A DNA stretch of 64,000 nt, from the NCBI GenBank assembly GCA_019187405.1, contig JABAQZ010000023.1, forward strand, positions 1 through 64,000, read 5' to 3'. Position 1 is the stretch's first letter. The number at the start of each line of letters is the position of its first letter. Positions 6,529-60,045 of the stretch are shown here, in pieces. A program made the position numbers and the translations under genes. Under the pieces are notes generated by a model, which was given only the letters and a program-made list of their open reading frames with translations, had not been told where the DNA came from and did not search any database. The stretch comes from Ignavibacteria bacterium (GTDB lineage: Bacteria > Bacteroidota > Ignavibacteria > Tepidaquicellales > Tepidaquicellaceae).

Positions 6529-8721
6529 ATGGATTACGGTAAGTACAAAAGTGCAGACAAAAATTTAATTCAGAGAAGAAAGATTAATTTCATTCTTTTG
6601 ATTCTGATTATTGTATTTGCCGCGGTGTTTCTTAAGCTTGTAAATGTGCAGATAATTGATTCGGAGAAGTATAAAATTGCTGCAAGAAAACAATATGAAA
6701 ATAAGATTACGCTTTCTCCTTTTAGAGGACTGATATATGACAGGAACATGAATATTTTAGTTTCTAATTCGTACGAATTTTCATTTGCAGCCGATCCAAA
6801 TATGATTGAAAAGCCGGAGGAAGTTGCAAAAATTTTTTCAAATGTATTCGGGAAAAGCGCTGAAGAGTATTTAAGCAAGCTTACAATGCCGAATACATCT
6901 TTTGTATATCTCGAAAGGAAAGTGGATGTAAATAACACAAAAGGGCTCGATACGCTGAACATTAACGGAGTGATTGTATTAAAGGAGCCGAAGAGAATTT
7001 ATAATTACGGCTCGCTTGCATCTCAGATAACGGGATTTACAAACATTGACAACAAAGGACAGACGGGAATAGAGCTTTCGATGGAAAGTGAGCTTGCAGG
7101 CAGGGAAGGGTTTGTTATTATGCAGCGAGACGGCAGAGGCAACAACAGACCTGCAATTGAATTTCCCAGAAAAGATCCTGAAAACGGAAACAGCATTGTG
7201 TTAACGATTGACGTGAACATACAAAAATTCGTCGAAGAAGAACTGCGCGACGGAGTAAACACATTCAATGCTGACGGTGGAAAGGCAATTGTATTAGCTG
7301 TTAAGACAGGCGAAATACTTGGAATGGCATCATATCCTTCTTATGACCCAAACAACATTACAATAAACGATACAATAGGAATGAAAAATTCCGTTATATC
7401 GGATGTGTTTGAACCCGGTTCGACATTTAAGTTGATCACTGCCGCAGCTGCAATCGAGGAAAAGTTTGAAGATAAAAATTCAGTCATTGAAACAGATAAC
7501 ATAAGCGAAGTACAAGGTCTTAAAATTACTGACGTTCACTCTGCAAAGAGCATGACATTTGAGAAGATTGTGGAACAGTCGAGCAACGTAGGGTTCAGTA
7601 AAGTATCACTGAAACTCGGAGCGGAAAGATTTTATAAATATGCCAGAGATTTCGGATTCGGAATTTACAGCGGCATTGAGCTTCCGGGTGAAAACAGAGG
7701 ATATTTGAAAAGGCCGATTGATTTCAATTCGTTTTCACTTCCTTATATGTCAATCGGTTATGAAGTGCTTGTAAATTCGCTTCAAATTGCAAATGCTTAT
7801 TCTTCAATTGCAAATAACGGAATGATGATGAAGCCGTTTATTGTAAAGAAAGAAATTTCAAATGACATGAGAATTATATATGAATCGAAGCCGACACAAA
7901 TAAGACAAGTAGTTTCGGAAAAAACGGCAAAGAGTCTGACGGAAATGTTTCAGAATGTTGTGGAAAGCGGGACTGGAACAAGTGCGGGAATTGAAGGAAT
8001 TAAAATTGCAGGAAAAACAGGAACTGCACAAAGACTTGTTGATGGAAAATACTCAAGTAATTCACACAATGCTTCATTTGTTGGATATTTTCCGGCTGAG
8101 AATCCTGGACTGATAATACTTGTTGCACTAAACAATCCGAAATCAGGAGATTATTACGGCGGTAAAGTTGCTGCTCCTATTTTCAAAAAAATAGCAGAAA
8201 GAATAATAGGATTTAAAGGTACATCCGACATATATCAGAGTACAATTGTTAGTACCGGAAATTTCGAACTTAAAGACGAAAAAATCATAACGGCAGGATA
8301 TTCCGACAATTCGGTTTTAATACCAAATCTTCTAAATCTTAAGCAGGAAGATGCAATTGAGATACTAAAGGAAAACAATATTAAATATCAGCTTATAAAT
8401 AATGAAGCCAAAGCTGGTTCCGGAAATAGTACGATAAGGGTAATTGAATCACAGATTCCTTTGCCGAATGAAAGAGTTGCGGATATAAATAGTTTAACGG
8501 TTTTGCTGACAGTAAAGGAAACAATAATTAGCAATGACAGGCTTGTTGCCGTTCCGGATGTATCTAATTTAAGTTTGAGAAAAGCAATTAACATACTGCT
8601 GTCAAACGGATTTGATTTTTTTGTCAGTGGTACGGGTAAAATTGCCGGACAGACTCCACCGCCCGGTACAAAGCAGCTGCCCGGATCAAAAGTAATTTTA
8701 TATTGCAGGAATCATCAATGA
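6529..8721 (+). CDS. ftsI: Division-specific transpeptidase (PBP) with two PASTA domains
   Basis: This class B penicillin-binding protein crosslinks septal peptidoglycan as the partner of FtsW. A single membrane anchor lies at about residues 20-40, followed by the PBP dimerisation domain. The transpeptidase motifs are STFK (nucleophile Ser298, Lys301), SSN (351-353) and KTGT (496-499). The C-terminus carries two PASTA repeats (about residues 590-665 and 665-730; the second ends in LPGSKVILYC). With 730 residues it is longer than E. coli FtsI because of the PASTA repeats, a layout frequent in Bacteroidota and Firmicutes. The stop overlaps the murE ATG as ATGA. Confidence 0.95.
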   Translation: MDYGKYKSADKNLIQRRKINFILLILIIVFAAVFLKLVNVQIIDSEKYKIAARKQYENKITLSPFRGLIYDRNMNILVSNSYEFSFAADPNMIEKPEEVAKIFSNVFGKSAEEYLSKLTMPNTSFVYLERKVDVNNTKGLDTLNINGVIVLKEPKRIYNYGSLASQITGFTNIDNKGQTGIELSMESELAGREGFVIMQRDGRGNNRPAIEFPRKDPENGNSIVLTIDVNIQKFVEEELRDGVNTFNADGGKAIVLAVKTGEILGMASYPSYDPNNITINDTIGMKNSVISDVFEPGSTFKLITAAAAIEEKFEDKNSVIETDNISEVQGLKITDVHSAKSMTFEKIVEQSSNVGFSKVSLKLGAERFYKYARDFGFGIYSGIELPGENRGYLKRPIDFNSFSLPYMSIGYEVLVNSLQIANAYSSIANNGMMMKPFIVKKEISNDMRIIYESKPTQIRQVVSEKTAKSLTEMFQNVVESGTGTSAGIEGIKIAGKTGTAQRLVDGKYSSNSHNASFVGYFPAENPGLIILVALNNPKSGDYYGGKVAAPIFKKIAERIIGFKGTSDIYQSTIVSTGNFELKDEKIITAGYSDNSVLIPNLLNLKQEDAIEILKENNIKYQLINNEAKAGSGNSTIRVIESQIPLPNERVADINSLTVLLTVKETIISNDRLVAVPDVSNLSLRKAINILLSNGFDFFVSGTGKIAGQTPPPGTKQLPGSKVILYCRNHQ

Positions 8722-22261: not shown

Positions 22262-22380
22262 CTGACTTATGGAGAAAGGTGGAGGGATTAGGCCCTGTGA
22301 AACCTTGGCAACCGTCTCATAATTTAATGTGAAGAAAGGTGCCAATTCCTATCCCTGCAATATGGGAAGAGATGAGTTAG
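22262..22380 (+). ncRNA. SAM-I (S-box) riboswitch aptamer
   Basis: The segment contains the S-box core: GGTGGAGGGA near 22278, CCTGTGAAACC and GGCAACC in the middle, and AGGTGCCAATTCC at 22337-22349. Helix P1 can form over 9 bp between 22262-22270 and 22372-22380 with two G-U pairs. The aptamer binds S-adenosylmethionine and here precedes metH, so methionine synthase is predicted to be shut off when SAM is abundant. GAAGAGAT (22366-22373) can instead pair with ATCTCTTC (22414-22421) to form an antiterminator. Confidence 0.95.
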
Positions 22381-46593: not shown

Positions 46594-47549
46594 TGTCACG
46601 CTCTCACAACAAGCCCCGTCTCATACTTACACTCGGAGATCCAAACGGAATAGGACCTGAAATAATACTCAAAATTTTTAACGACAAAAAATTTGTTGAG
46701 AATCTTGATCTGACTGTTGCAGGTTCATCAAAGATTCTGAATGAGTATGCAGAAATTCTGAATCTGAGTAAAATATCACTGGAAAAGATAATTGAAACAG
46801 ATGTTCCCACAAAATTCAAACTGTCACCGGGAAAGATTGACAAGTTAGCCGGAAAAATTTCCGGAGATTCGATAAGTGCAGCATGCGCGCTTTGCATGAA
46901 AGGAAAATTTTCCGGAATGATAACGCTTCCCATTTCGAAAGAAGCACTGAACAAAGGCGGCTATGATTTTCCGGGGCATACCGAAATGCTTACTGAAATG
47001 ACCGGCTCTAAAAACACGGCCATGATACTTTATTCAAAAAAATTTTCAACAACACCGATCACAGGACACATTCCCCTATCGGAAGTAAGTAAGAGTCTCT
47101 CAAAAGAATTACTGTTCAACAAAATTGTTACTGTCAACAATTCACTGGTTAAAGATTTTAAGATCAAGAATCCGAAGATCGCTGTCCTCGGGCTTAATCC
47201 TCATGCCGGAGACGGAGGACTTATCGGACAGGAAGAGAAAAAGTTGATAACTCCTTTGATAACTAAAATGAATTCAATGGGATTTAATATCCGCGGACCG
47301 TATCCTTCTGACGGTTTTTTTGCAAGCGGGCATTACAAAAATTTTGATATAACAATGGCGCTATATCACGATCAGGGTTTGATACCTTTTAAGATGATCT
47401 CGTTTGATGAAGGTGTGAATTTTACTGCAGGACTTAAGACTAGAAGGGCATCTCCCGATCACGGAACCGCCTTTGATATTGCAGGTGCAGGAAGAGCAAA
47501 TCCCGAAAGTACTATGCAGGCAATTTTATTGCTTGCTGAAATGCATTAA
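46593..47549 (+). CDS. pdxA: 4-hydroxythreonine-4-phosphate dehydrogenase
   Basis: PdxA oxidises 4-phosphohydroxy-L-threonine in pyridoxal phosphate synthesis (DXP-dependent route). The 318-residue protein has LGDPNGIGPEI at the start, the metal-binding and substrate segments YDFPGHTEML, TGHIPLSEV, LNPHAGDGGLIG, and YHDQGLIPFKM, and RRASPDHGTAFDIAG near the end. The 3' end overlaps by 4 bases a truncated gene on the opposite strand. Confidence 0.95.
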   Translation: MSRSHNKPRLILTLGDPNGIGPEIILKIFNDKKFVENLDLTVAGSSKILNEYAEILNLSKISLEKIIETDVPTKFKLSPGKIDKLAGKISGDSISAACALCMKGKFSGMITLPISKEALNKGGYDFPGHTEMLTEMTGSKNTAMILYSKKFSTTPITGHIPLSEVSKSLSKELLFNKIVTVNNSLVKDFKIKNPKIAVLGLNPHAGDGGLIGQEEKKLITPLITKMNSMGFNIRGPYPSDGFFASGHYKNFDITMALYHDQGLIPFKMISFDEGVNFTAGLKTRRASPDHGTAFDIAGAGRANPESTMQAILLLAEMH

Positions 47550-47980
47550 TTAATCCCGCTCAGATGACTCCGTATTCTTCCGGCAACAGTACTTCGTTGT
47601 GTTACAAAACCAACTTCATACTCCGAAACTACCTCTGGTTTGATCAACCGTTCAGCAAAGTAAGAATCATAATTCAAGAGAAGATTTGGAATTTCTCTTT
47701 TGTGAATAAATTCTTCTTTATTGAGAAACGTACTTTTAAGCAATGAAGCTGCCGCTCTAAGATCAACGTGTTTAAAGTGAGATACAAAGTTAATGACAGA
47801 ACAACTTTTAGATTCATCTTTAGGATCAAAAAATAAATTTTTTTCCAAAGAGATGATAAAGCCCTCACCTTTCAATTCTTTATTCTTTTTTTGATATGGA
47901 ATGTTTAACCAATCAAGAACTTTACTAAATGGAATCGATTTACTGATTTCAGCAAAGTTTAGAAATTCTTGTTTTGACAA
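47546..47980 (-). pseudogene. Truncated CHC2/TOPRIM primase-like protein
   Basis: The 144-residue frame begins with a helix-rich segment and a CHC2-like fold (VLDWLNIPYQKKNKELKG, then LFFDPKDESKSCSVINFV). It ends in PEVVSEYEVGFVTQRSTV-AGRIRSHLSGIN, which matches the start of the TOPRIM-side region (VGY...GRI..PI) of plasmid primase-like CHC2/TOPRIM proteins. The expected TOPRIM body is missing: the frame stops exactly at the pdxA stop codon. The zinc ligands are not all present. Most likely a 3'-truncated mobile-element gene; an intact short stand-alone protein cannot be excluded. Confidence 0.6.
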
Positions 47981-48028
47981 AGTACAACTCCTTTCATTTG
48001 GATTTGTATTTTATCTTATCATATAAAT

Positions 48029-48062
48029 GCAAAAAGGTCAGCATTAGATGCTAACCTTTTGC
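48029..48062 (-). terminator. Attenuator-like hairpin before the CHC2-like gene
   Basis: About 13 bp pair between 48029-48043 and 48049-48062, with one mismatch and one bulged base. On the - strand the 3' arm ends in a T-rich run. It lies 49 bases before the CHC2-like ATG and directly after a structured segment, so it may attenuate transcription of that gene. Confidence 0.5.
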
Positions 48063-48240
48063 TTAACACAACCGCAGACATACGCCAAAGTTTTTTTCAC
48101 GACCTAACTCAGGTGTCATGTCTAAGATAACCGAGGTCGTCTTCATATGTTGTTTACGGTAGCTTACCACCGGATCCCTTTCAGGATGCCACAGCATACA
48201 AATAACAGTTAGCTTATACTATTGGACTTTTCCCGAAATA
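48060..48240 (-). ncRNA. Candidate structured RNA (leader) of unknown class
   Basis: This stretch is visibly richer in G and C than its surroundings and has no open frame. On the - strand a hairpin CGGT/ACCG (48169-48172 with 48157-48160) is followed by a stem of 6 bp ACGACC/GGTCGT (48135-48140 with 48099-48104) that encloses further complementary bases. The terminator-like hairpin and the CHC2-like gene follow. The signatures of RNase P RNA, tmRNA and S-box RNA were looked for and not found. Whether it is a cis-regulatory leader or a mobile-element RNA is open. Confidence 0.4.
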
Positions 48241-48290
48241 CAGTAGCGGTCATAACTAATTCTAACAAAATAGCAGTCAAATCTAAATGA

Positions 48291-48400
48291 TTAACTCATC
48301 TCAGTTTCTGAAGTAATGCTTATTTCAACTGATCCTACATAAAAATCTTGAAGAACTATTTGTGTTTCTTTGAGTATGTTAATTTTCTACCGCTTTACAT
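48291..48400 (-). pseudogene. Short coding-like remnant upstream of the structured segment
   Basis: A - strand frame without a start codon reads about 33 residues including LKETQIVLQDFYVGSVEISI and TSETEMS, then TAA at 48291. The composition is protein-like, and nothing homologous was recognised. It is probably the 3' end of a gene lost when this segment was rearranged. Confidence 0.35.
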
Positions 48401-48431
48401 TATCCGACCTATTTAATATTGGAAATAAAAT

Positions 48432-48866
48432 TTATCTTAACTTAATAAAACCGAGCTTTTCATACTGATCATTAAATTGGATCATATCCGGATTTGGTAA
48501 TGTAACTTGAACAATCTTTATATTTGTATTAAAATTTCTTGGAACAATTGATTCTTTCATTGTATAAACAATCAATGAATCGTCAGTGAATTTGTAATAA
48601 AATGGGGACCAGCCCTTAAAAATAAAATCGTCAGAGGAATCTTCAAATGGATCAATTTCGGGAGTAGTTGAAATTAAAATAGTATTATGATCTCCTGTAA
48701 TTCCTCTGATAACATTCTTAATATAGAGCTTCTCATTTAAAGTTTGTGAATTTAGTTCAATTAACTTAGTAGTGGGCTCCATTGATGGTAGCTTAAAATA
48801 TAGATAAATTACTATTAAAATTATTACAATGAGAGTAACACTAAGAATTTTAAGTAAAGTTTTCAT
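48432..48866 (-). CDS. Small membrane-anchored protein of unknown function
   Basis: The 144-residue protein has an N-terminal membrane segment (about residues 6-27), then a soluble domain of about 110 residues rich in beta pattern (IIKNVIRG-like start, FIFKGWSPFYYKFTDDSLIVYT in the middle). No known family was recognised. It is on the same strand as the Rhs genes and lies downstream of them. An exported domain next to a polymorphic-toxin locus suggests an extra immunity gene, but this is inference from position. Confidence 0.6.
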   Translation of the reverse strand: MKTLLKILSVTLIVIILIVIYLYFKLPSMEPTTKLIELNSQTLNEKLYIKNVIRGITGDHNTILISTTPEIDPFEDSSDDFIFKGWSPFYYKFTDDSLIVYTMKESIVPRNFNTNIKIVQVTLPNPDMIQFNDQYEKLGFIKLR

Positions 48867-49724: not shown

Positions 49725-51185
49725 TTAAGGTTCGATTCCTTGTTTCTTAATTCTTTCCAACAATGATGAAATTTTTTCTTCGCTCCAGCCCATTTGCTTT
49801 AAAATTTGCTGTACACTTTTACCAATCTTCAATGCTTTTTCTTTAGCTTGATTCCAATTTCTTTGTATGTCAGTTTTCCATTTCTCTTTATCTTGTTTAT
49901 GTGGAGGACCAGGATATTTTGAGGTCTTACCTTCCAATAAGTCTAAGTGCTTTTGGACAGGATCCATTTTTCCCACTACAATTTTCTTAATATCTTTAGA
50001 TCTCGTTTCAAGAGTTGTTATATTAATTTCATCTATTGGTTGATCATATTCTAAGTATCCTTCTTCTCCAACAACAAAGATACTTTGGTTTTCTTTGACA
50101 TCCATAGTTCCAAGATTTCCCATAAAAACTTGTAAGAAAACATCCAATGGAGTTATTGGAATATCAAATACTGGAGATGCGATTCTTGTTGATTTGTAAA
50201 TTACTTCTTTGGCAAACATTCTAATTGCGACAGTTTGTCTACCATCTGGATCAATCAGTTTAAACGGGTTTCGTAATACATAATTATAAGGTGAATAATC
50301 AATATGCTTTTCCATTAATGGATCTGTACTTATCCAATTACCAATTCTCGCATCATAATACCTAGCCCCAAAATAATCATAATTATTTTCTTTATCTCTT
50401 TCTTTTCCTGTAAACTTGTAAATGCTCTCATCACTTTCGTAGGTTCTACTTTGTAACAAAAATCCCCAAGCATCATAGTCTTGTGCAGAAATGACAGAAT
50501 TATTTTCATCAGTAATTGCTCTTATAGAACCCAGATAATCTTTAACATAAAAATTTGGAAAGTCCAAATTAGTAATATATCCTTCATTGCCCAATCCCCA
50601 AATATTGTTCTGTTTCAAATTTCCATTTAGATATATAGCTAGTTCCTTACCATCAACTCCTCTTGAATAAATTTCATCATTTATTAACTCCCATATGCTT
50701 GGTGCGTCTCCAATGTCTTCAGTGTCAGGACTTGCCACACTATCCGGTTGCTGAATACCAATATACTGATAAACTTTCTTCCTTATCCGATTTCCAGCAT
50801 CGTCGTAGTAATAATATGTTAAATAGACCAAGCTATCTTCTATAGCTATTTTTTTATTTCTAATTTGAATAATCAGATTTCTGTTATCATATTTTATGTC
50901 GCTGTTTCTGTTTACTTCATCGGTCTTAATATTGCCATTTGCATCATAAGTATATTGGGAAGTAGAACCATACACCTTCTGAAGTCTATTCGTTCCCGAA
51001 TAATATGTATAGGTAAAATTGTCATCTAACGTTCCCGTGCTTCCATATCTTTTCAGAGTCATGATATTTCCATCCTTATCATAAGTATTTTCCAGATCAA
51101 ATGATTTGCTAGATAAACCTACAGTGTTCAAAAGACGATTTGATTTATCATAAGTGTAATCAAAACTTAAATATGCAGTGTTCAT
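49725..51185 (-). CDS. Orphan Rhs tip: core end plus a distinct C-terminal toxin candidate
   Basis: The 486-residue frame contains the last YD repeats and the Rhs core (YDYFGARYYDARIGNW at about 268-283), then DPDGRQ and a 170-residue variable tail ending in a helix-rich, basic segment (QKHLDLLEGK...SVQQILKQMGWSEEKI). The core is closely similar to that of the large Rhs gene (49725-51185 corresponds to about 52560-53500), with the same YSRGVDGKELAIY and FTGKERD segments, but the tail is unrelated. There is no signal peptide. The open frame continues in the same register upstream of the ATG to about 51290, without a start codon, so this is a displaced 3' cassette and not a full gene. The toxic activity is not recognised. 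Confidence 0.8.
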   Translation of the reverse strand: MNTAYLSFDYTYDKSNRLLNTVGLSSKSFDLENTYDKDGNIMTLKRYGSTGTLDDNFTYTYYSGTNRLQKVYGSTSQYTYDANGNIKTDEVNRNSDIKYDNRNLIIQIRNKKIAIEDSLVYLTYYYYDDAGNRIRKKVYQYIGIQQPDSVASPDTEDIGDAPSIWELINDEIYSRGVDGKELAIYLNGNLKQNNIWGLGNEGYITNLDFPNFYVKDYLGSIRAITDENNSVISAQDYDAWGFLLQSRTYESDESIYKFTGKERDKENNYDYFGARYYDARIGNWISTDPLMEKHIDYSPYNYVLRNPFKLIDPDGRQTVAIRMFAKEVIYKSTRIASPVFDIPITPLDVFLQVFMGNLGTMDVKENQSIFVVGEEGYLEYDQPIDEINITTLETRSKDIKKIVVGKMDPVQKHLDLLEGKTSKYPGPPHKQDKEKWKTDIQRNWNQAKEKALKIGKSVQQILKQMGWSEEKISSLLERIKKQGIEP

Positions 51186-51279
51186 AAAATTCCAGTCGTC
51201 ACTTTGACATATTTCACTTACTAGTTTGCCATCGGGATTAGTTCCACTGGTATATATTAATAAGTTTTTTCTGATATGC

Positions 51280-51960
51280 TCACCTAGTCTTCAACAAACC
51301 ACTCATTTTCATACCGAATGGCAAAGGTTCAGAATCTTCTAGTTTACTAAAATATTTCAATTTTGATATTGGAATAAATATATTCCAATTTATATATGTA
51401 TATTTATTATTGAGTAACTTTGGTGTTTTTATTTTCATAATTGATGTGTCAAATCGTGTTTTGAAAATTATGAAATACCTATCTTGATATACCCATATTA
51501 TTGAATTATCAAGGATATCAGTTGTTAATAAACTGTCATAGAGGTAAGTTGTAAAATACTCTCTATTTGCTTCATTAAAGTTTATGTAAAATTTTATAAA
51601 GTCTAAGATTTCCCTTCCCTTATTGTTTTTATTTATTTCAAATGTATTCGATTTGAATGCAAAACTAAATAAAGTAAAATTCTGAAAATATTGATATTCA
51701 TTATTTAAATTATTAAGTGAATTAATCCAAAATACCGGACAAGAATACGTAATTGTATCTGACTGTGTAATTTTATTTTTTTCCAATTGAACAATAAGGT
51801 AACCATCAAATTCATAATTCATCTTAGTAATTTCAATTAGCTTTGATGCAGTATTTATTGTTCCATTTAATAATGGCAAATTTTTTTTTAAAATCACAGT
51901 ATCTTGTGCAAAAATTAATTCTGTCAGTATAAATGAGATCATTATCATACCTATTTTCAT
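51280..51960 (-). CDS. Secreted small protein, candidate immunity to the metzincin Rhs toxin
   Basis: The 226-residue protein has an N-terminal signal peptide (residues 1-19, ending IFAQ) and a single soluble domain rich in aromatic and beta-forming residues. It overlaps the large Rhs gene by 4 bases (ATGA), so translation is coupled. Nothing was recognised by family. A periplasmic immunity protein is what a protease tip acting in the periplasm would require. It could instead be an accessory or assembly factor. Confidence 0.7.
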   Translation of the reverse strand: MKIGMIMISFILTELIFAQDTVILKKNLPLLNGTINTASKLIEITKMNYEFDGYLIVQLEKNKITQSDTITYSCPVFWINSLNNLNNEYQYFQNFTLFSFAFKSNTFEINKNNKGREILDFIKFYINFNEANREYFTTYLYDSLLTTDILDNSIIWVYQDRYFIIFKTRFDTSIMKIKTPKLLNNKYTYINWNIFIPISKLKYFSKLEDSEPLPFGMKMSGLLKTR

Positions 51961-54900
51961 CTCTCATATCCTCCTATGAATTGGGGTCCCGATATACTAA
52001 AATCTAAATTTGCTCTTCTAAATATATTACTAAATTCTTTATTACCCGGTGGATTTCTATCAATTGTGTAACTCATAATTGATTTACTCTTAGTTGAAGT
52101 AATGTCAGGTAATCCTAAAAGATGACCTATTTCATGTGCACCTGTATTCCATCTGGGATTAAGTTCATTCCCCACTCGCATAAACAATACCGAAATGGAT
52201 GAGCCAACTCCAATGTCACCTTCAATAAAGTCATTTGGTTGAGCATTTTTTACAATGTTTTGACCTTCATTTCTTTGTGTTTCTATTGCCGCATATGTAT
52301 AACTCTCATAAAGTACTAATTTAACAATCGTATTTACTTCATATTCTACTCCATTGATTTTAAAAGTTCCACTCCACAAATTTTGAGCATTTTCTTGAAA
52401 CTCCAATAAAGTATTATACTGTAAATCATTAAGACCAAATGGATTTAATCTGTTATATCGTGAATAATTAAGAGTGATATTAAGATTTATTTTTTTATTT
52501 TTTTCATCAATCTCTGCAATTGCATCCTTTCCATTTATGTCTCTAAAAACAAGAGGATTCAGAACAGCATAAGAATAGGGAGTAAATGAAAAGTATTTTT
52601 CCAAATTCGGTTCCACACTTCCCCACCTCCCGATCCTCGCATCATAATACCTCGCACCAAAATAATCATACAAGTTTTCCTCATCTCTCTCCTTCCCCGT
52701 GAACTTATACACACTCTCCTCACTCTCATAATCCCTACCTTCCATCAGGTATCCCCAGCAGTCATAGTCTTGCGCCGAGATTACTTCATCATTTTCATTC
52801 GTCACTATCCGTATAGAGCTGAGATGGTCTTTTAAATAAAAGTTAGGATAGTCAGAGTTGTCAATATATCCCTCATTTCCAATCCCCCAGATAGTAGTCT
52901 GCTTTATATTCCCGTTCACATATATCGCCAGCTCCTTTCCGTCAACTCCTCTTGAATAAATTTCGTCATTTATCAACTCCCAGATGACCGGTGTATCTCC
53001 GATATCTTCTTCATCAGGTGTCTCAACGCTGTCGGGATTCTGTGTTCCAATGTACTGATAAACTTTTTTTCTTATGCGGTTGCCTGCTTCGTCGTAGTAA
53101 TAATATGTTAAATACACCAAACTATCTTCGATAACTATTTTTTTATTTCTAATTTGAGTTATCAGATTTCGATAATCGTACTTGATGTCTTTGTTTCTGT
53201 TAATATCATCAGTTAACATATTTCCGTTTGCATCATAAGTATACTGCGTTCCCGAGCCGGTTACTCTCTGAAGTTTGTTTGTGTTTGAGTAATATGCATA
53301 GTTGAAATTATCCATTATCGAGCCGGCTCCGTCGTAGCGTTTAAGTTCGAGTATGTTGCCGTCTTTGTCGTATTTGTTCTCAAGTTTGAAATGATCTTTA
53401 TATTGCTGATTGTTATTCTCCGTTTCAAGCAGGCGGTTGGATTTGTCGTATTTATAATTTGAATTGAGATCGGTTGTGTTTGTAAAATTATCATTATAGC
53501 TTCCTGAAAATTGCTGAGACTTTACGTTTCCGTTTTTGTAATAAGTATTTGTATAGCCAAACAAACCGCCAGCTTCCTGAAGTTCTGAAATGCGGTTACG
53601 GTTATCATAGTAATAATTATTCTTTATTCCTCCATCATTAAGCTGTTGCTGGGAGACTTGAGAATTTTCATTATAAGAATAATCTGCAAGCGTAATATAA
53701 GTTGGATCAGGAGCATCAGGCCAGCCGATATAATATTCTACCTTATTAAGCCGTCCTGCGAAGTCATAAGAATATCTGAAAGTTTTTGCTTCAGCCGAGT
53801 TGTAGTGAGAATAAATTGTCATTTGATCCTGCGAGTTATACTGATACTCCGTTATCAAAGTATCAAATCCCGAAATTATATTCCACATCTTTATCACTCT
53901 ACCTCTTTTGTCGTATTTATAATACTTAAAATTCCAGTCGTCAGTATAACGAGTTCTGTACGCTGTTGCAGCCAGATTTCTCTTTGTATAAAGCGGAGAA
54001 GTATTACCCGCCGGTGTGAAGAAAAGATTTTGAACAATTGATGATGTAAGTGTGTCGTAAACGTTTACAGCAAGGTAAAAGTCGTCATCATCCGGGACGA
54101 ACTGGCTTCCGTCACTAGGCGCATCAATCTCAAATATATTCTCCCCGATTCCCGTCAATCTATTAAGTCCGTCATAATTTCTGAAAGTGTATTTAAAGGC
54201 GTTTTCATTTCTTTGATTGGCATCTTGTGTATATGTCAGATTATTATTGTTGTCATAAACATAATGAGTCTGACCTGCGTCGGGAGTAGTTTTTGCAGAC
54301 TGCCTTCCGTAGCCGTCGTAAGTGTATGAGATAATTTTACCTTCCGGAGATTTGACATGTGTAACTCTGTTCAAGCTTTCGTAATTATAATCGGTTATCA
54401 TCGAAGTCAGATTTTCCTGATTCGGGTCTTCCTGTATGAACTTCACTTCTCTCCTCAGATTTCCAACTGCATCAAAATATTTTTCAAAATCATTTCCTTC
54501 CTCATCCCTGAAGGTTTGTTTTTCGATTAAACCATTTACAGTACCGAAGTATGTACTCATACCATTGTAATAGGCATAGGAATTTAGTGTTGAACTTGTG
54601 TCAGGATTTTTAGTTTTAGTTAATCTTCCAAGTCCATCGTAAGAAAACAGAGTTGAATCATTTTTCGGATCAAAATTTCCGGATGGATTATTCATGTAAT
54701 TGAATCTGTACTTATAAGAATTATAATTTTCTGCATCATAGTAAATATCTTTTTGAGCGATGTTTCCAAAACCATCGACTGAATATTTAATTTTGCTATA
54801 GTCACTGGTAAGAGTATTTCTAATTGAAAGAACGTCAATTTTTTTATTCACATCATCGTACTTATATTTTATTGTACCGCCTTTAACAATCGGATATCTT

Positions 54901-57900
54901 AAAGTATCTGAAATATCCAGATTTCCATAAATAAACAAAACAGGTCGGTAAAGACTGTACCAATAATCCTCATTTCCATTTACTGTTTCTATGCAATTGG
55001 TAAAATTCAAATTGAAACTTGGACCAGCCGGTGGTGTCCCTATTCCGGTGTAATAAGAATGCATTGTTAAACCAACCAGCGGCCAATCGTTGGAAATGAA
55101 AGTATTTATTAAGTTTTTTACGTCAAATCTTTGTATTCGAAAATAGCAAATAGAAGAAGGACAATTGCTATTGATAGTGTCTAAATTAATTTCAGTATTT
55201 TCCGTGGTTATTTCAGCTGATTGAATTATGTTATGTGCATTGTACCCACAAGACTGCCAGGTGCTGTAACTGTTTAAGAAAGTTATTCCTTTTATTTGTG
55301 TATTAAAACTCGCATTAGAAATTGGATTTCCGTCATTAGCTGCTGAAAAGCAGATTGGTGAAAATTGAAGAATTGCTGAATCGATTGAAGTAAAATTGTA
55401 AATTTTGTTACTTGTGTCAAGCTTAATGAAAGCATACTTATTATTAGAACTATTAATCAGCATCTTAAACGGGTCACAGGATTTTAAATTGGAATAATTT
55501 TGTGTTTCAATATAAGTTACTTTTCCGTCTGATGTGTTATAGTTGCCCCAACCTTTAGTTTTCAACTCAAGACTTGTTTTAATATAGTGAGTATCAATTC
55601 TCATGAACGTGCTATCCGGAGATGTTGAGAAGTCTCCCGGAAGTGTTATTGAATTTATCCTGTGAATAGGCTGATATTTGAATTCGGTTACATATAAATC
55701 CTGATCAATTGTGCGTGTCGGATAACCGGCTATATTATACGATTTATAAATTCTCGAAAGTGTATCGACCTGCGCTCCATTGATTTTATAGTTATCAATT
55801 CGGATCGGGAATCTCGTATCCCACATCGTAGCATTAGTATCTTTCACAACTCCATTATTAAACTTCATTTTGATTAAGTGTCTTCTGTAGGGTTCTTCAT
55901 CTGTTAAATTTATTGTGTCCCCGGGATAAATTTCTGAGACAGAAACCATATGATAGAAATATTTTTCCTGTTCGCCATTTGGTCTTGTTATCGACTTTAA
56001 ATTTCCATTCTTATTCGGATAAAAATCCCAGTGATAAATTTCTGCAGCGCTGGTATCATTTCTATAATATTCATATTCAGTTTGAATAAAATCATTGAAA
56101 TTATAGTTGTTAAAAACTTTTTCTCTCCTTAATTGACCATAATATCCGATGGTCGAATCGTGACGACCGACATACTCAAAAAGTTTTTTTGACAGTATGT
56201 TATTTGAACTATCTTTTCTCAATTGCATGGAATCCGATTGGATTTTATAAAAACACATTTTATCATACACCTGATAGCTCCAAGTATTGCTTGCAATTTT
56301 ATAAGTGAAATCCTCTTCATAAAAATTAATGTAAGAGGTTAATGTTTTATTGTTAAAAGGATCTGTTTCTTCGAAAGACTTTAGAGGATTAATAATTCCA
56401 CTTTGATAAGTATATGAATAAGTCCACAAACGACTGATACCTTGCATTCTATTTCTTTTGCTCTTTATCAAAAATGAACCATCTAAACCTGGTAATCCAC
56501 TATTAATCATTTCTCCTTTCTCATAATAGTATTCATTGTATTGGGACACATTACTACTATAAGTTGTATCAGACATTAATTTTGTTATTCCTTGCAAATC
56601 TGGTTGTTCAAGATAATAATTGTAAGGATTGTGAAGTGGAAAGATTTTATACTTTTTAGTACTTGTAACATTTGAAGCAGAATTATTTAATGTGGAAGAT
56701 TCCAGTGATGAAACGCTTTTTGTAGTTGTATAACTATCTGTAGAATCAACATCGTAGTTGCCGCTGTATGGATAACTGAAGGTAGTATAAGATTTAGCTA
56801 TTCCGGTATTTGAATCTATTCTTGAATATAGCATGTTCGTATAAAACTCATCTCTGCCATAACCATTATATTTATTACTTTTTAATTTTGAATTTCCTGA
56901 TTCTGTAACAGAAATATTATCCGAAGAACCATACCCATAGGCCGTGCCTTTACCTAAAAAATTTCTGTAATAAATTATCCTCTTCATGTTTGTAATATCA
57001 AAGGTGTTTCCACTGACATTGTAATACACCATATTTTGAAATGTTCTTCTGTAATCATCGTATTGTATCGTTGTTTCTTGATTGAGAATATTTAAAATCT
57101 TCTTAATCGATGCTCTATGATTCCTGATCCCATTTTGATTCACAGGGACAACCACCACAGGTGTTTCATAGTAACATGTAAAACTTCCGTTTACTTCAGA
57201 AGAATGTTCAATCTTAACTCCGTATGTCGGATTTTGAAATCCTTCAATTATGCCGTATTCAAAGCTGACACCAAGATTTTCTTGACTATATCCATTAGCA
57301 CTTACACTGCTTAACAAAGGTCTTCCGTAAGCCTGAAGACTAAATGAATATTCAAAATTAATTTTATGTCCGAATCTTTCTGAGATTGATTCAAGCAATA
57401 ATAGCATTGGTTTTCTTCTCGCAGTAATATTTGCATCAATCGGAAGGTCTGCAAATACTCTTTTGTGTTCAATGAATGTGCAAACTGTTCCATCTCCTTT
57501 CAATAATTCAACCTTCCTTCTTCGAAAACCTGTATAACCTCCTGTTTCGATATAACTAACTTTTGCTCTATAGTACAATTCTTTTCCTTCATAAACATAA
57601 TCACCTACATATAAACTGTCGGTTTCGGTCTCAGTTGAAATTCGAACCAATGAAATTACAGATCCATCACCTGCTAAAATGTTTATTCTGTTTGGATTGC
57701 CTGAACCTGCTGCTTCTAAACTTCCATCAAAGTGATATCCCGGAATAAGAAGTTTTACACTGTCGTCATTTATATAATGAATATTTGGATCTGAAGATTT
57801 TGTTGTAAAAAAATTTGTTTCAAAATTTAATACCTGAATCGCAATACCATTAACACTAATAATCCATTCGGGAGCATTCATATTATATCGTTGCGGAAAA

Positions 57901-58325
57901 TTATTATATTCAGTAACTGTACCCAATATAAACTGATGACCTACAGAACCATTGTACGTTAGAGCCATATTGAAACTGAGGTCACCCGCAAGAGGATAGT
58001 TATAAAGCGGTATATTATAAATTAAGTTTCCATTGAAGTCATTTATAATTTCATTTTCATCAAAACTAAACCCGTTGGATTTATAAAAACCTCTTTCATT
58101 AAACATGTTTGCAATATCTTTAACACCATAATCTACGGGTTGATCACCTCCTCCGGAAGTATCTGCTGGTTCAGATGAATCCAGTGGATTAGGAAACCGT
58201 AAAATTCTTTCTTGAGAAGTAAACAAATTTATCTCATGTGGGAAAAAAATCTTATTAACATTTTCGAAAGAATAAAAACCTAGTGGAAGGAATACACAGA
58301 AAAAAATTACACTGAAATTTTTCAT
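51957..58325 (-). CDS. Rhs/YD-repeat polymorphic toxin with metzincin-like protease tip
   Basis: The 2122-residue protein has a signal peptide (1-20), a large N-terminal beta-rich region, many YD repeats (for example YTYDGYGRQSAKTTPD, YDKSNRLLE, YTYDANGNML) and the Rhs core GARYYDARIGRW near residue 1905, where the shell is normally cleaved. The tip after DINGKDA carries HEIGHLLGLPD at 2064-2074 and SIMSY at 2082-2086. That is HExxHxxGxxD plus a Met-turn, the metzincin zinc-protease signature (His2064, His2068, Asp2074 as ligands, Glu2065 catalytic). The gene is therefore a contact-toxin candidate that cuts proteins. The downstream gene overlaps by 4 bases. The usual T9SS sorting domain is not seen. 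Confidence 0.88.
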   Translation of the reverse strand: MKNFSVIFFCVFLPLGFYSFENVNKIFFPHEINLFTSQERILRFPNPLDSSEPADTSGGGDQPVDYGVKDIANMFNERGFYKSNGFSFDENEIINDFNGNLIYNIPLYNYPLAGDLSFNMALTYNGSVGHQFILGTVTEYNNFPQRYNMNAPEWIISVNGIAIQVLNFETNFFTTKSSDPNIHYINDDSVKLLIPGYHFDGSLEAAGSGNPNRINILAGDGSVISLVRISTETETDSLYVGDYVYEGKELYYRAKVSYIETGGYTGFRRRKVELLKGDGTVCTFIEHKRVFADLPIDANITARRKPMLLLLESISERFGHKINFEYSFSLQAYGRPLLSSVSANGYSQENLGVSFEYGIIEGFQNPTYGVKIEHSSEVNGSFTCYYETPVVVVPVNQNGIRNHRASIKKILNILNQETTIQYDDYRRTFQNMVYYNVSGNTFDITNMKRIIYYRNFLGKGTAYGYGSSDNISVTESGNSKLKSNKYNGYGRDEFYTNMLYSRIDSNTGIAKSYTTFSYPYSGNYDVDSTDSYTTTKSVSSLESSTLNNSASNVTSTKKYKIFPLHNPYNYYLEQPDLQGITKLMSDTTYSSNVSQYNEYYYEKGEMINSGLPGLDGSFLIKSKRNRMQGISRLWTYSYTYQSGIINPLKSFEETDPFNNKTLTSYINFYEEDFTYKIASNTWSYQVYDKMCFYKIQSDSMQLRKDSSNNILSKKLFEYVGRHDSTIGYYGQLRREKVFNNYNFNDFIQTEYEYYRNDTSAAEIYHWDFYPNKNGNLKSITRPNGEQEKYFYHMVSVSEIYPGDTINLTDEEPYRRHLIKMKFNNGVVKDTNATMWDTRFPIRIDNYKINGAQVDTLSRIYKSYNIAGYPTRTIDQDLYVTEFKYQPIHRINSITLPGDFSTSPDSTFMRIDTHYIKTSLELKTKGWGNYNTSDGKVTYIETQNYSNLKSCDPFKMLINSSNNKYAFIKLDTSNKIYNFTSIDSAILQFSPICFSAANDGNPISNASFNTQIKGITFLNSYSTWQSCGYNAHNIIQSAEITTENTEINLDTINSNCPSSICYFRIQRFDVKNLINTFISNDWPLVGLTMHSYYTGIGTPPAGPSFNLNFTNCIETVNGNEDYWYSLYRPVLFIYGNLDISDTLRYPIVKGGTIKYKYDDVNKKIDVLSIRNTLTSDYSKIKYSVDGFGNIAQKDIYYDAENYNSYKYRFNYMNNPSGNFDPKNDSTLFSYDGLGRLTKTKNPDTSSTLNSYAYYNGMSTYFGTVNGLIEKQTFRDEEGNDFEKYFDAVGNLRREVKFIQEDPNQENLTSMITDYNYESLNRVTHVKSPEGKIISYTYDGYGRQSAKTTPDAGQTHYVYDNNNNLTYTQDANQRNENAFKYTFRNYDGLNRLTGIGENIFEIDAPSDGSQFVPDDDDFYLAVNVYDTLTSSIVQNLFFTPAGNTSPLYTKRNLAATAYRTRYTDDWNFKYYKYDKRGRVIKMWNIISGFDTLITEYQYNSQDQMTIYSHYNSAEAKTFRYSYDFAGRLNKVEYYIGWPDAPDPTYITLADYSYNENSQVSQQQLNDGGIKNNYYYDNRNRISELQEAGGLFGYTNTYYKNGNVKSQQFSGSYNDNFTNTTDLNSNYKYDKSNRLLETENNNQQYKDHFKLENKYDKDGNILELKRYDGAGSIMDNFNYAYYSNTNKLQRVTGSGTQYTYDANGNMLTDDINRNKDIKYDYRNLITQIRNKKIVIEDSLVYLTYYYYDEAGNRIRKKVYQYIGTQNPDSVETPDEEDIGDTPVIWELINDEIYSRGVDGKELAIYVNGNIKQTTIWGIGNEGYIDNSDYPNFYLKDHLSSIRIVTNENDEVISAQDYDCWGYLMEGRDYESEESVYKFTGKERDEENLYDYFGARYYDARIGRWGSVEPNLEKYFSFTPYSYAVLNPLVFRDINGKDAIAEIDEKNKKINLNITLNYSRYNRLNPFGLNDLQYNTLLEFQENAQNLWSGTFKINGVEYEVNTIVKLVLYESYTYAAIETQRNEGQNIVKNAQPNDFIEGDIGVGSSISVLFMRVGNELNPRWNTGAHEIGHLLGLPDITSTKSKSIMSYTIDRNPPGNKEFSNIFRRANLDFSISGPQFIGGYER

Positions 58326-59473: not shown

Positions 59474-60045
59474 AATTAAATTTCCTTACCAAGCTGCTTG
59501 CCTCGCCTGTTTTTTGGCGGGGGGCTTGGTAAGGAGAATTGGGTCTTAGACTATGGCATCAGGACTTTCGTCCTGACGCAATACATTTAAAGCCTTCTCT
59601 TTATTTAGAATTAAATTTCCTTACCAAGCTGCTTGCCTCGCCTGTTTTTTGGCGGGGGGCTTGGTAAGGAGAATTGGGTCTTAGACTATGGCATCAGGAC
59701 TTTCGTCCTGACGCAATACATTTAAAGCCTTCTCTTTCCAAAGCCCCAGCTTTGGAAAGTTTATTTAGAATTAAATTTCCTTACCAAGCTGCTTGCCTCG
59801 CCTGTTTTTTGGCGGGGGGCTTGGTAAGGAGAATAGGGTCATACATTTAAAGCCTTCTCTTTCCAAAGCCCCAGCTTATACATTTTAAACCTTCTCTTTC
59901 CAAAGCCCCAGCTTTGGAAAGTTGATTTAGAATTAAATTTCCTTACCAAGCTGCTTGCCTCGCCTGTTTTTTGGCGGGGGGCTTGGTAAGGAGAATTGGG
60001 TCTTAGACTATGGCATCAGGACTTTCGTCCTGACGCAATACATTT
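59474..60045. repeat. Composite hairpin-repeat array, right locus
   Basis: Four A hairpins (59484-59534, 59619-59669, 59779-59829, 59941-59991), three B hairpins (59559-59576, 59694-59711, 60016-60033) and C hairpins (59734-59759, 59896-59921, and a half copy truncated at 59878) alternate in the same order as at 45.3-45.7 kb. The half C copy at 59862-59878 followed by a restart shows unequal recombination. The first A copy is fused to the broken IS110 transposase. No protein is encoded; small frames through the array are shadows. Confidence 0.93.

Follow-up and report, generated by a model that had tools for sequence, protein, structure and literature searches.

What does a GC-richer, non-coding segment do between an RHS region and a truncated gene in the genome of an Ignavibacteria bacterium? 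In the window (the whole stretch of 64,000 nucleotides that was analysed, from contig JABAQZ010000023.1), the initial annotation placed a candidate structured leader RNA at 48029-48430, laid out as an attenuator or riboswitch ahead of a CHC2/TOPRIM-like gene. We find on the minus strand, at 48030-48251, a structured RNA of ~220 nt with its own terminator. The window copy is a decayed remnant and a second locus of its own genome: the fold is intact, the gene is truncated and the ATPase gene is absent.

A pseudoknotted RNA with its own terminator

The segment differs from its surroundings in composition, as had been remarked earlier (GC 0.43-0.48 at 48050-48249 versus 0.23-0.33 around it), and is flanked by an RHS-region ORF (48432-48866, minus strand) and the short gene at 47546-47980 (minus strand). 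Folding of the minus strand of 48029-48240 yields -62.2 kcal/mol against -49.4 kcal/mol (sd 4.2) for shuffled sequences (z -3.06; 0/200 as low), whereas the full stretch 48029-48430 reaches a z of only -1.61, because 48256-48430 lies outside the RNA. Covariance model R2, which has the window copy itself among its training rows, matches at 48025-48255 with 203.4 bits; 63/67 consensus pairs are kept in this copy. A nucleotide search of its own genome (G000) returned a paralogue, 77% identical, at G000:C16:70324-70552. The features of the locus are as follows.

48030..48251, minus strand: pseudoknotted RNA, from P1 to terminator (covariance model R2, consensus pairs, paralogue)
48246-48251 with 48070-48075, minus strand: P1, closing stem (alignment pair counts)
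48240-48245 with 48217-48222 and 48232-48234 with 48224-48226, minus strand: P0, 5' hairpin (alignment pair counts)
48206-48216 with 48123-48133, minus strand: Pa, long helix (one mismatch in the window copy)
48192-48202 with 48142-48152, minus strand: P5, inner helix (one mismatch; encloses hairpin 48167-48169/48160-48162)
48135-48140 with 48099-48104 in the H3 loop, minus strand: pseudoknot (alignment pair counts)
48106-48117 with 48081-48092, minus strand: H3 hairpin (two mismatches in the window copy)
48033-48059, minus strand: intrinsic terminator hairpin and U run (10/10 counted pairs kept)
48259..48267, minus strand: extended -10 like promoter of the RNA, TGTTAGAAT, one mismatch to TATAAT (promoter-motif scan)
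48013..48021, minus strand: degraded extended -10 like site, the second of the locus and assigned to the gene (promoter-motif scan)
47546..47980, minus strand: DnaG-like (pseudo-primase) gene, truncated, starting with TTG (profile match to positions 1-139 of 269, E 1.7e-57)

The structural elements described in the initial annotation are present: the helix 48135-48140/48099-48104 is the pseudoknot, the helix 48169-48172/48157-48160 extends the small hairpin 48167-48169/48160-48162, and the terminator-like hairpin lies at 48033-48059, where the terminator pattern has its single occurrence in the window (0 expected). Elsewhere in the same window there are a SAM riboswitch at 22264-22378 (plus strand; Rfam RF00162, 77.9 bits) and a large RHS/YD-repeat island at 49725-58325 (minus strand), whose C-terminal end is displaced and which has small ORFs next to the RNA. 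Similar RHS-like genes are the neighbours of RNA copies in G001, G016 and G000:C16.

One architecture emerges from two alignments (10 and 12 rows), consisting of P1, P0, Pa, P5 and a pseudoknot in which the strand before Pa-3' pairs with the loop of hairpin H3. In structures drawn by hand, with the sequences in view, before pairs were counted on the same rows (RNAalifold served for part of clade B), 93.7% of cells are paired over 72 pairs in clade A (alignment A10, 10 rows including the window copy), and 89.1% over 54 pairs in clade B (alignment A6, 12 rows; P1, P0, Pa, P5, pseudoknot, H3 and terminator), for which slid controls give 34-51%. Changes on both sides of a pair were found in clade A at 42/72 pairs (89 cells), a level reached by 0/500 shuffles, and in clade B at 36/54 pairs (82 cells), where the shuffles average 18.7 pairs and 27.4 cells and again 0/500 reach the observed counts. 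The outer stem of P0 is paired in 100% of cells, with double changes at 5/6 pairs; the weaker helices in clade B are P1 (79%), P0 (77%) and P5 (67%). An alternative pairing in clade B, UUGCC/GGCA, was also considered, but P1 covaries and was preferred.

The pseudoknot alone is paired in 98.3% of cells in clade B, with double changes at 3/5 pairs. Alignment A11 provides a fairer test: it was made with R2, which had no pseudoknot, and three of its rows had no part in training. Its pseudoknot cells are paired in 96.6% of cases, 4/7 pairs show double changes, 3/500 shuffles reach this and slid controls give 9-39%. One untrained row, G021, has its own compensated version. The versions recognised by eye are GACGACC/GGUCGU, GACGGUUC/GAACCGUC, GGACUC/GAGUCC, ACGCUCU/AGAGCGU and UGUCC/GGACA, and further UUCCC/GGGAA, CGGCC/GGCUG, CAGCC/GGCUG and CGGUC/GACCG. 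The comparison upstream of homologous genes, proposed earlier as the means of refuting a structured RNA here, was carried out, and the segment is conserved at that position with compensatory changes in its helices.

Distribution, transcription signals and gene module

A first nucleotide search gave a match in 5/59 genomes, the own genome included, with G030 matching by a 30-base terminator only; once aligned, these first matches had blocks of sequence in common, and several also an identical gene start downstream. Over the 341 genomes of the class, R2 (the clade A model) matched 27 at E <= 0.01, with (nearly) full-length matches in 9, and R1 (the clade B model) matched 10, with the full RNA at the module in 5 (G073, G078, G291, G311 and G130). 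The RNA is present in 14/341 Ignavibacteria-class genomes, its own included (9 by R2 and 5 others by R1, one of the two copies in G001 being cut by a contig end), and in nine phage contigs; 13/14 of the RNA genomes also have the DnaG-like gene. Short R2 matches (about 60-110 nt) in the other 18 genomes were set aside as terminator-only by length alone, and R1 matches in G026, G018:C17, G034, G131 and G331 (118-185 nt, <38 bits) after one rescoring.

Blind matches to untrained sequences were obtained with R1 in L059, L062, L091 and L016 (E 1.3e-7 to 0.0015) and, weakly, in L048 (E 0.025) and L051 (E 0.57), and with R2 in L045, L048 and L056 (E 3e-36 to 2e-23). The RNAs of L062, L048, L051, L045 and L056 sit between ATPase and DnaG-like genes, that of L059 before a DnaG-like gene at the contig end, that of L091 after the ATPase gene and that of L016 at a contig end. 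The RNAs of G229 and G322 were recognised weakly (E 0.57 in L051) and by eye.

Searches of Rfam (4227 families) at the gathering score returned no match at the RNA in the window, L067, L049, L056, L045, L062 or L048, and the GOLLD and ROOL models did not match it; at a relaxed E-value (551 window bases; L068, L043, L044) only weak, chance-like matches of 0.56 or worse appeared. No tRNA or tmRNA was found at the RNA, a conserved word of the clade A RNA had no match in viral contigs, and the RNA is named nowhere in the literature searched (titles and abstract starts, with a 2017 survey of 224 candidate RNAs falling outside it). The earlier view of a structured RNA matching no known family agrees with the Rfam results and the covariation: the RNA is a family outside the Rfam families searched, of uncultured Ignavibacteria phages and related integrative elements. 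Families of structured RNA that covary this strongly and have no Rfam entry are uncommon. A guide RNA was considered and rejected, the longest exact words common to the RNA and the rest of the locus being 10-13 nt, not above those of shuffled RNAs (11 loci).

An exact TGnTATAAT immediately precedes the RNA in 16/27 loci (shuffle mean 0.24, maximum 3) and between terminator and gene in 17/27 loci (shuffle mean 0.235, maximum 2), the second count also taking TGnTATAAT within 60 nt after the terminator; the window versions of both sites are weaker. In clade B the ATPase gene extends into the RNA promoter site. From the ATPase stop to the RNA there are -5 to 19 nt in 18/20 loci (1-19 nt in 17, a 5-nt overlap in one), and from the RNA to the DnaG-like start 4-57 nt in 18/22 loci and 185-519 nt in 4/22, namely in G004, G031, G008 and one locus with an inserted HNH-like ORF. 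By eye, such an ORF lies in L064 between the RNA and the DnaG-like gene (7719 to 8001) and in L092 after the RNA (after 2760). Since an extended -10 precedes each, the RNA and the downstream gene look like two transcription units.

Full copies of the module contain, in this order, genes for a winged-helix/restriction-fold-like protein, 1-2 variable proteins and a HerA/VirD4-like ATPase with a Walker A motif, then the RNA and the gene for the DnaG-like protein. For the winged-helix/restriction-fold-like protein there was no Foldseek match at E <= 0.001, and the best VIA rows, with Z 8.7 or below, were not decisive; among phages and plasmids the ATPase has distant relatives, at about 22-27%. Among 17 close ATPase matches (E below 1e-120), 13 are followed by the RNA and then the DnaG-like gene, the RNAs of G229 and G322 being recognised only from a weak score or on visual inspection. 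As to the remaining ones, the contig of G130:C47 ends within an apparent RNA, cargo comes first in G000:C16, and no RNA was found near the ATPase genes of G004:C379, where the contig ends soon after, and G016:C210. The RNA occurs without a DnaG-like gene at G016:C315:23970 and also in G001, whose contigs end there.

A DnaG-like relative is encoded on ten viral contigs, in one case at no better than E 1e-4, and two further ones (L091 and L092) carry the ATPase gene and the RNA. The RNA is found in 9/12 of these contigs (L064-L070, L091, L092); L071 and L072 begin inside the DnaG-like gene. Terminase genes (TerS, TerL) follow the module in phage contigs and in genomes G008, G311 and G021, and portal, capsid, ERF and SSB genes were identified in single examples. 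The modules of G078 and G229 have no virion genes nearby, and a tyrosine integrase gene lies about 10 kb from that of G078. On contig C16 of the own genome the module is split by cargo, with the ATPase gene at 59668, defence genes, the RNA at 70319, RHS genes and, 10.4 kb from the RNA, the next DnaG-like gene at 80984, which is followed by three integrase-family genes.

Several observations concern the cargo. The defence-like genes between ATPase and RNA on C16 (L012 538-7982) encode an SNF2 helicase, an N6/N4 methylase and a 969-aa ORF. Terminators like that of the RNA stand on both sides of the C16 RHS cargo (L046 4806-4940, L012 9820-10057), so that the 3' end of the RNA looks there as if it had served as an insertion site. 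In G016:C315 (L014 9895-16208), two RNA copies in direct repeat surround a run of genes that includes, by eye, a response-regulator-like ORF and a histidine-kinase-like one of 811 aa. CBASS-like nucleotidyltransferase (SMODS) and patatin genes occur on or near elements (L014 3335-4324, L066 3119-4000, L132 7588-8586). Replic_Relax (PF13814) was discarded as a candidate, with matches at 0.001 in 2/6 genomes, below the cut-off and at another gene, and in control genomes too.

The DnaG-like protein and its link to the RNA

The gene after the RNA is truncated, as the initial annotation had it, with 144 aa versus 269-272 aa in intact relatives. Its description as CHC2/TOPRIM-like stands as far as the DnaG fold is concerned, but the family has no CHC2 cysteines, and the window protein stops eight residues past 'AGRI', before the TOPRIM part. 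Relatives of the protein were found in 15/341 genomes of the class and in 4/395 genomes sampled across the phylum, each of these four again belonging to Ignavibacteria. NCBIfam TIGR01391 matches two full-length relatives at E 2e-7 and 4e-8, far below the model cut-off. Against Pfam, NCBIfam and PADLOC, two full-length proteins gave primase-like families only, any other Pfam match being no better than E 0.068; no DnaG-like relative was matched in plasmids, and in cultivated phages there were primase-like matches only 24-25% identical.

The predicted structure (pLDDT 87.9) aligns over 153 positions with the polymerase domain of DnaG (5guj; Z 14.2, rmsd 2.5) and over 83 with the fold of its zinc domain (1d0q; Z 9.7, rmsd 2.3), and both domains of the two-domain DnaG fold are thus predicted to be retained. 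Across 13 aligned proteins the zinc part has no conserved Cys or His at the CHC2 positions, and the TOPRIM Glu of the EGyfD motif is replaced in the alignment. At the DxD position of DnaG, a stretch outside the alignment showing this replacement, most rows read H-x-E-P-x-N. Lacking both the ligands for zinc and the acidic residues of TOPRIM, the protein probably binds nucleic acid without primer synthesis; judged from its sequence, catalysis is unlikely.

The RNA type follows the DnaG-like protein and not the ATPase. In the DnaG-like tree, the 11 clade-B RNA loci make up one side of a branch with support 89/92 (not starred). The same 11 loci fall in two groups in the ATPase tree, where their togetherness is rejected (p-AU 2.6e-6) in a test set that includes the long branches G031, G130 and G229. 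Over 18 loci, distances correlate at 0.71 for RNA and DnaG-like protein, 0.45 for RNA and ATPase and 0.44 for ATPase and DnaG-like protein; within clade B alone no correlation is significant at 0.05 (RNA/DnaG-like 0.216, p 0.20). The RNA and the DnaG-like gene are neighbours, so linkage could account for part of their co-inheritance. The ATPase stop, however, is mostly nearer to the RNA than the DnaG-like start is, and plain linkage would thus give no preference for co-inheritance with the DnaG-like protein.

Possible roles and related systems

The reading that we prefer, at a probability of roughly 55%, is that of an independently transcribed, trans-acting RNA of phage-related elements, which most likely forms a ribonucleoprotein with the DnaG-like protein and may handle element DNA. 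The RNA would be transcribed from its own promoter, which in most loci lies within the 3' end of the ATPase gene or directly behind it, end at its own terminator and fold into a P1-closed pseudoknotted core. Acting in trans, it would join the neighbouring DnaG-like protein in a ribonucleoprotein, the protein binding nucleic acid and making no primers; this particle, the ATPase and the winged-helix/restriction-fold-like protein may handle element DNA in replication start, segregation or transfer. The analysis shows the fold and how it is conserved, distinct transcription signals for RNA and gene, the arrangement of the module, and joint inheritance of the RNA with the DnaG-like protein. Beyond this we infer that the DnaG-like protein binds the RNA, and, more speculatively, the neighbouring genes suggest the DNA-handling role. 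A bolder proposal, which we consider unlikely, is a ribonucleoprotein of a new kind, in which the non-catalytic primase and the pseudoknotted RNA would load or steer the HerA/VirD4-type motor on element DNA (an RNA-directed replication start or packaging/transfer choice), the RNA possibly multimerising via the loop-strand pairing.

It is rather unlikely that the pair resembles type III toxin-antitoxin (AbiF-like) systems, with the RNA inhibiting a DnaG-like protein that is toxic when free and the pair protecting or stabilising the element. RNA and protein types do travel jointly, but a DnaG fold is not known among the toxins of type III toxin-antitoxin or AbiF systems, the two full-length DnaG-like proteins match no known toxin or Abi family in Pfam, NCBIfam or PADLOC, the RNA has no evident repeats, and the upstream ATPase module would be left unexplained. 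The order of RNA, terminator and gene on a mobile element is that of AbiF/RCd22 and ToxIN, although a promoter of the gene is predicted here after the terminator (exact in 17/27 loci), where the AbiF paper reports none (PMC12373285). That the RNA acts in cis on the DnaG-like gene, be it as a leader, an attenuator or a riboswitch, was originally supposed from the layout but is improbable in our judgement: the spacing of 4-57 nt in 18/22 loci, with the terminator between, would suit it, yet the gene has a separate predicted promoter, the spacing grows to 185-519 nt in 4/22 loci (one with the HNH-like ORF) and to 10.4 kb in the C16 module, and G016:C315 has an RNA copy without an adjoining DnaG-like gene.

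The pRNA of phi29 is a small phage RNA that serves the DNA packaging motor, and copies of the present RNA might similarly join via H3 loop/strand pairing into a ring on the HerA/VirD4-like ATPase, which we hold to be quite unlikely. The RNA promoter at the end of the ATPase gene and the phage copies directly before terminase genes are consistent with a motor RNA, as is a pseudoknot pairing that could presumably also form between molecules, but the RNA type does not track the ATPase, the phages have ordinary terminases, and the RNA is kept in elements without virion genes nearby (G078, G229). That the RNA gene is solely an integration or recombination site, conserved as the place where cargo inserts, seems very improbable. 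Cargo does lie beside or between RNA copies (defence and RHS genes in G000:C16, a kinase operon in G016:C315, RHS genes in the window and G001), and the RNA-like terminator flanks the C16 RHS cargo on both sides; a DNA site, however, needs neither compensatory changes in all helices nor conserved promoters.

The ribonucleoprotein reading names a testable candidate partner, a primase fold without catalytic residues whose type tracks the RNA even where the ATPase is exchanged. It offers a concrete RNA-protein pair for studying the use of RNA by mobile elements, from phages to cargo-carrying integrative elements.

Among known systems, GOLLD and ROOL, the best-known large phage RNAs, are structured phage and prophage RNAs without known function, ROOL having several pseudoknots; many GOLLD members are >800 nt, and both often lie near tRNA islands (PMC12286853). 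The Ignavibacteria RNA is likewise a structured phage RNA, with pseudoknotting as described there for ROOL, but unlike these larger RNAs it measures ~220 nt, lies between ATPase and pseudo-primase genes and has no Rfam match. With AbiF/RCd22 and type III toxin-antitoxin systems it shares a short RNA, a terminator and a protein gene on a mobile element, whereas the gene here has its own predicted promoter, repeats are not evident and the protein has a DnaG fold (PMC12373285). The likeness to phi29 pRNA lies in the position beside an ATPase gene, and the difference in the ordinary terminases and in an RNA that tracks the DnaG-like protein instead of the ATPase. The DnaG-like protein itself, although without the zinc ligands and TOPRIM acidic residues of DnaG and T7 gp4 primase, resembles both in its two-domain fold.
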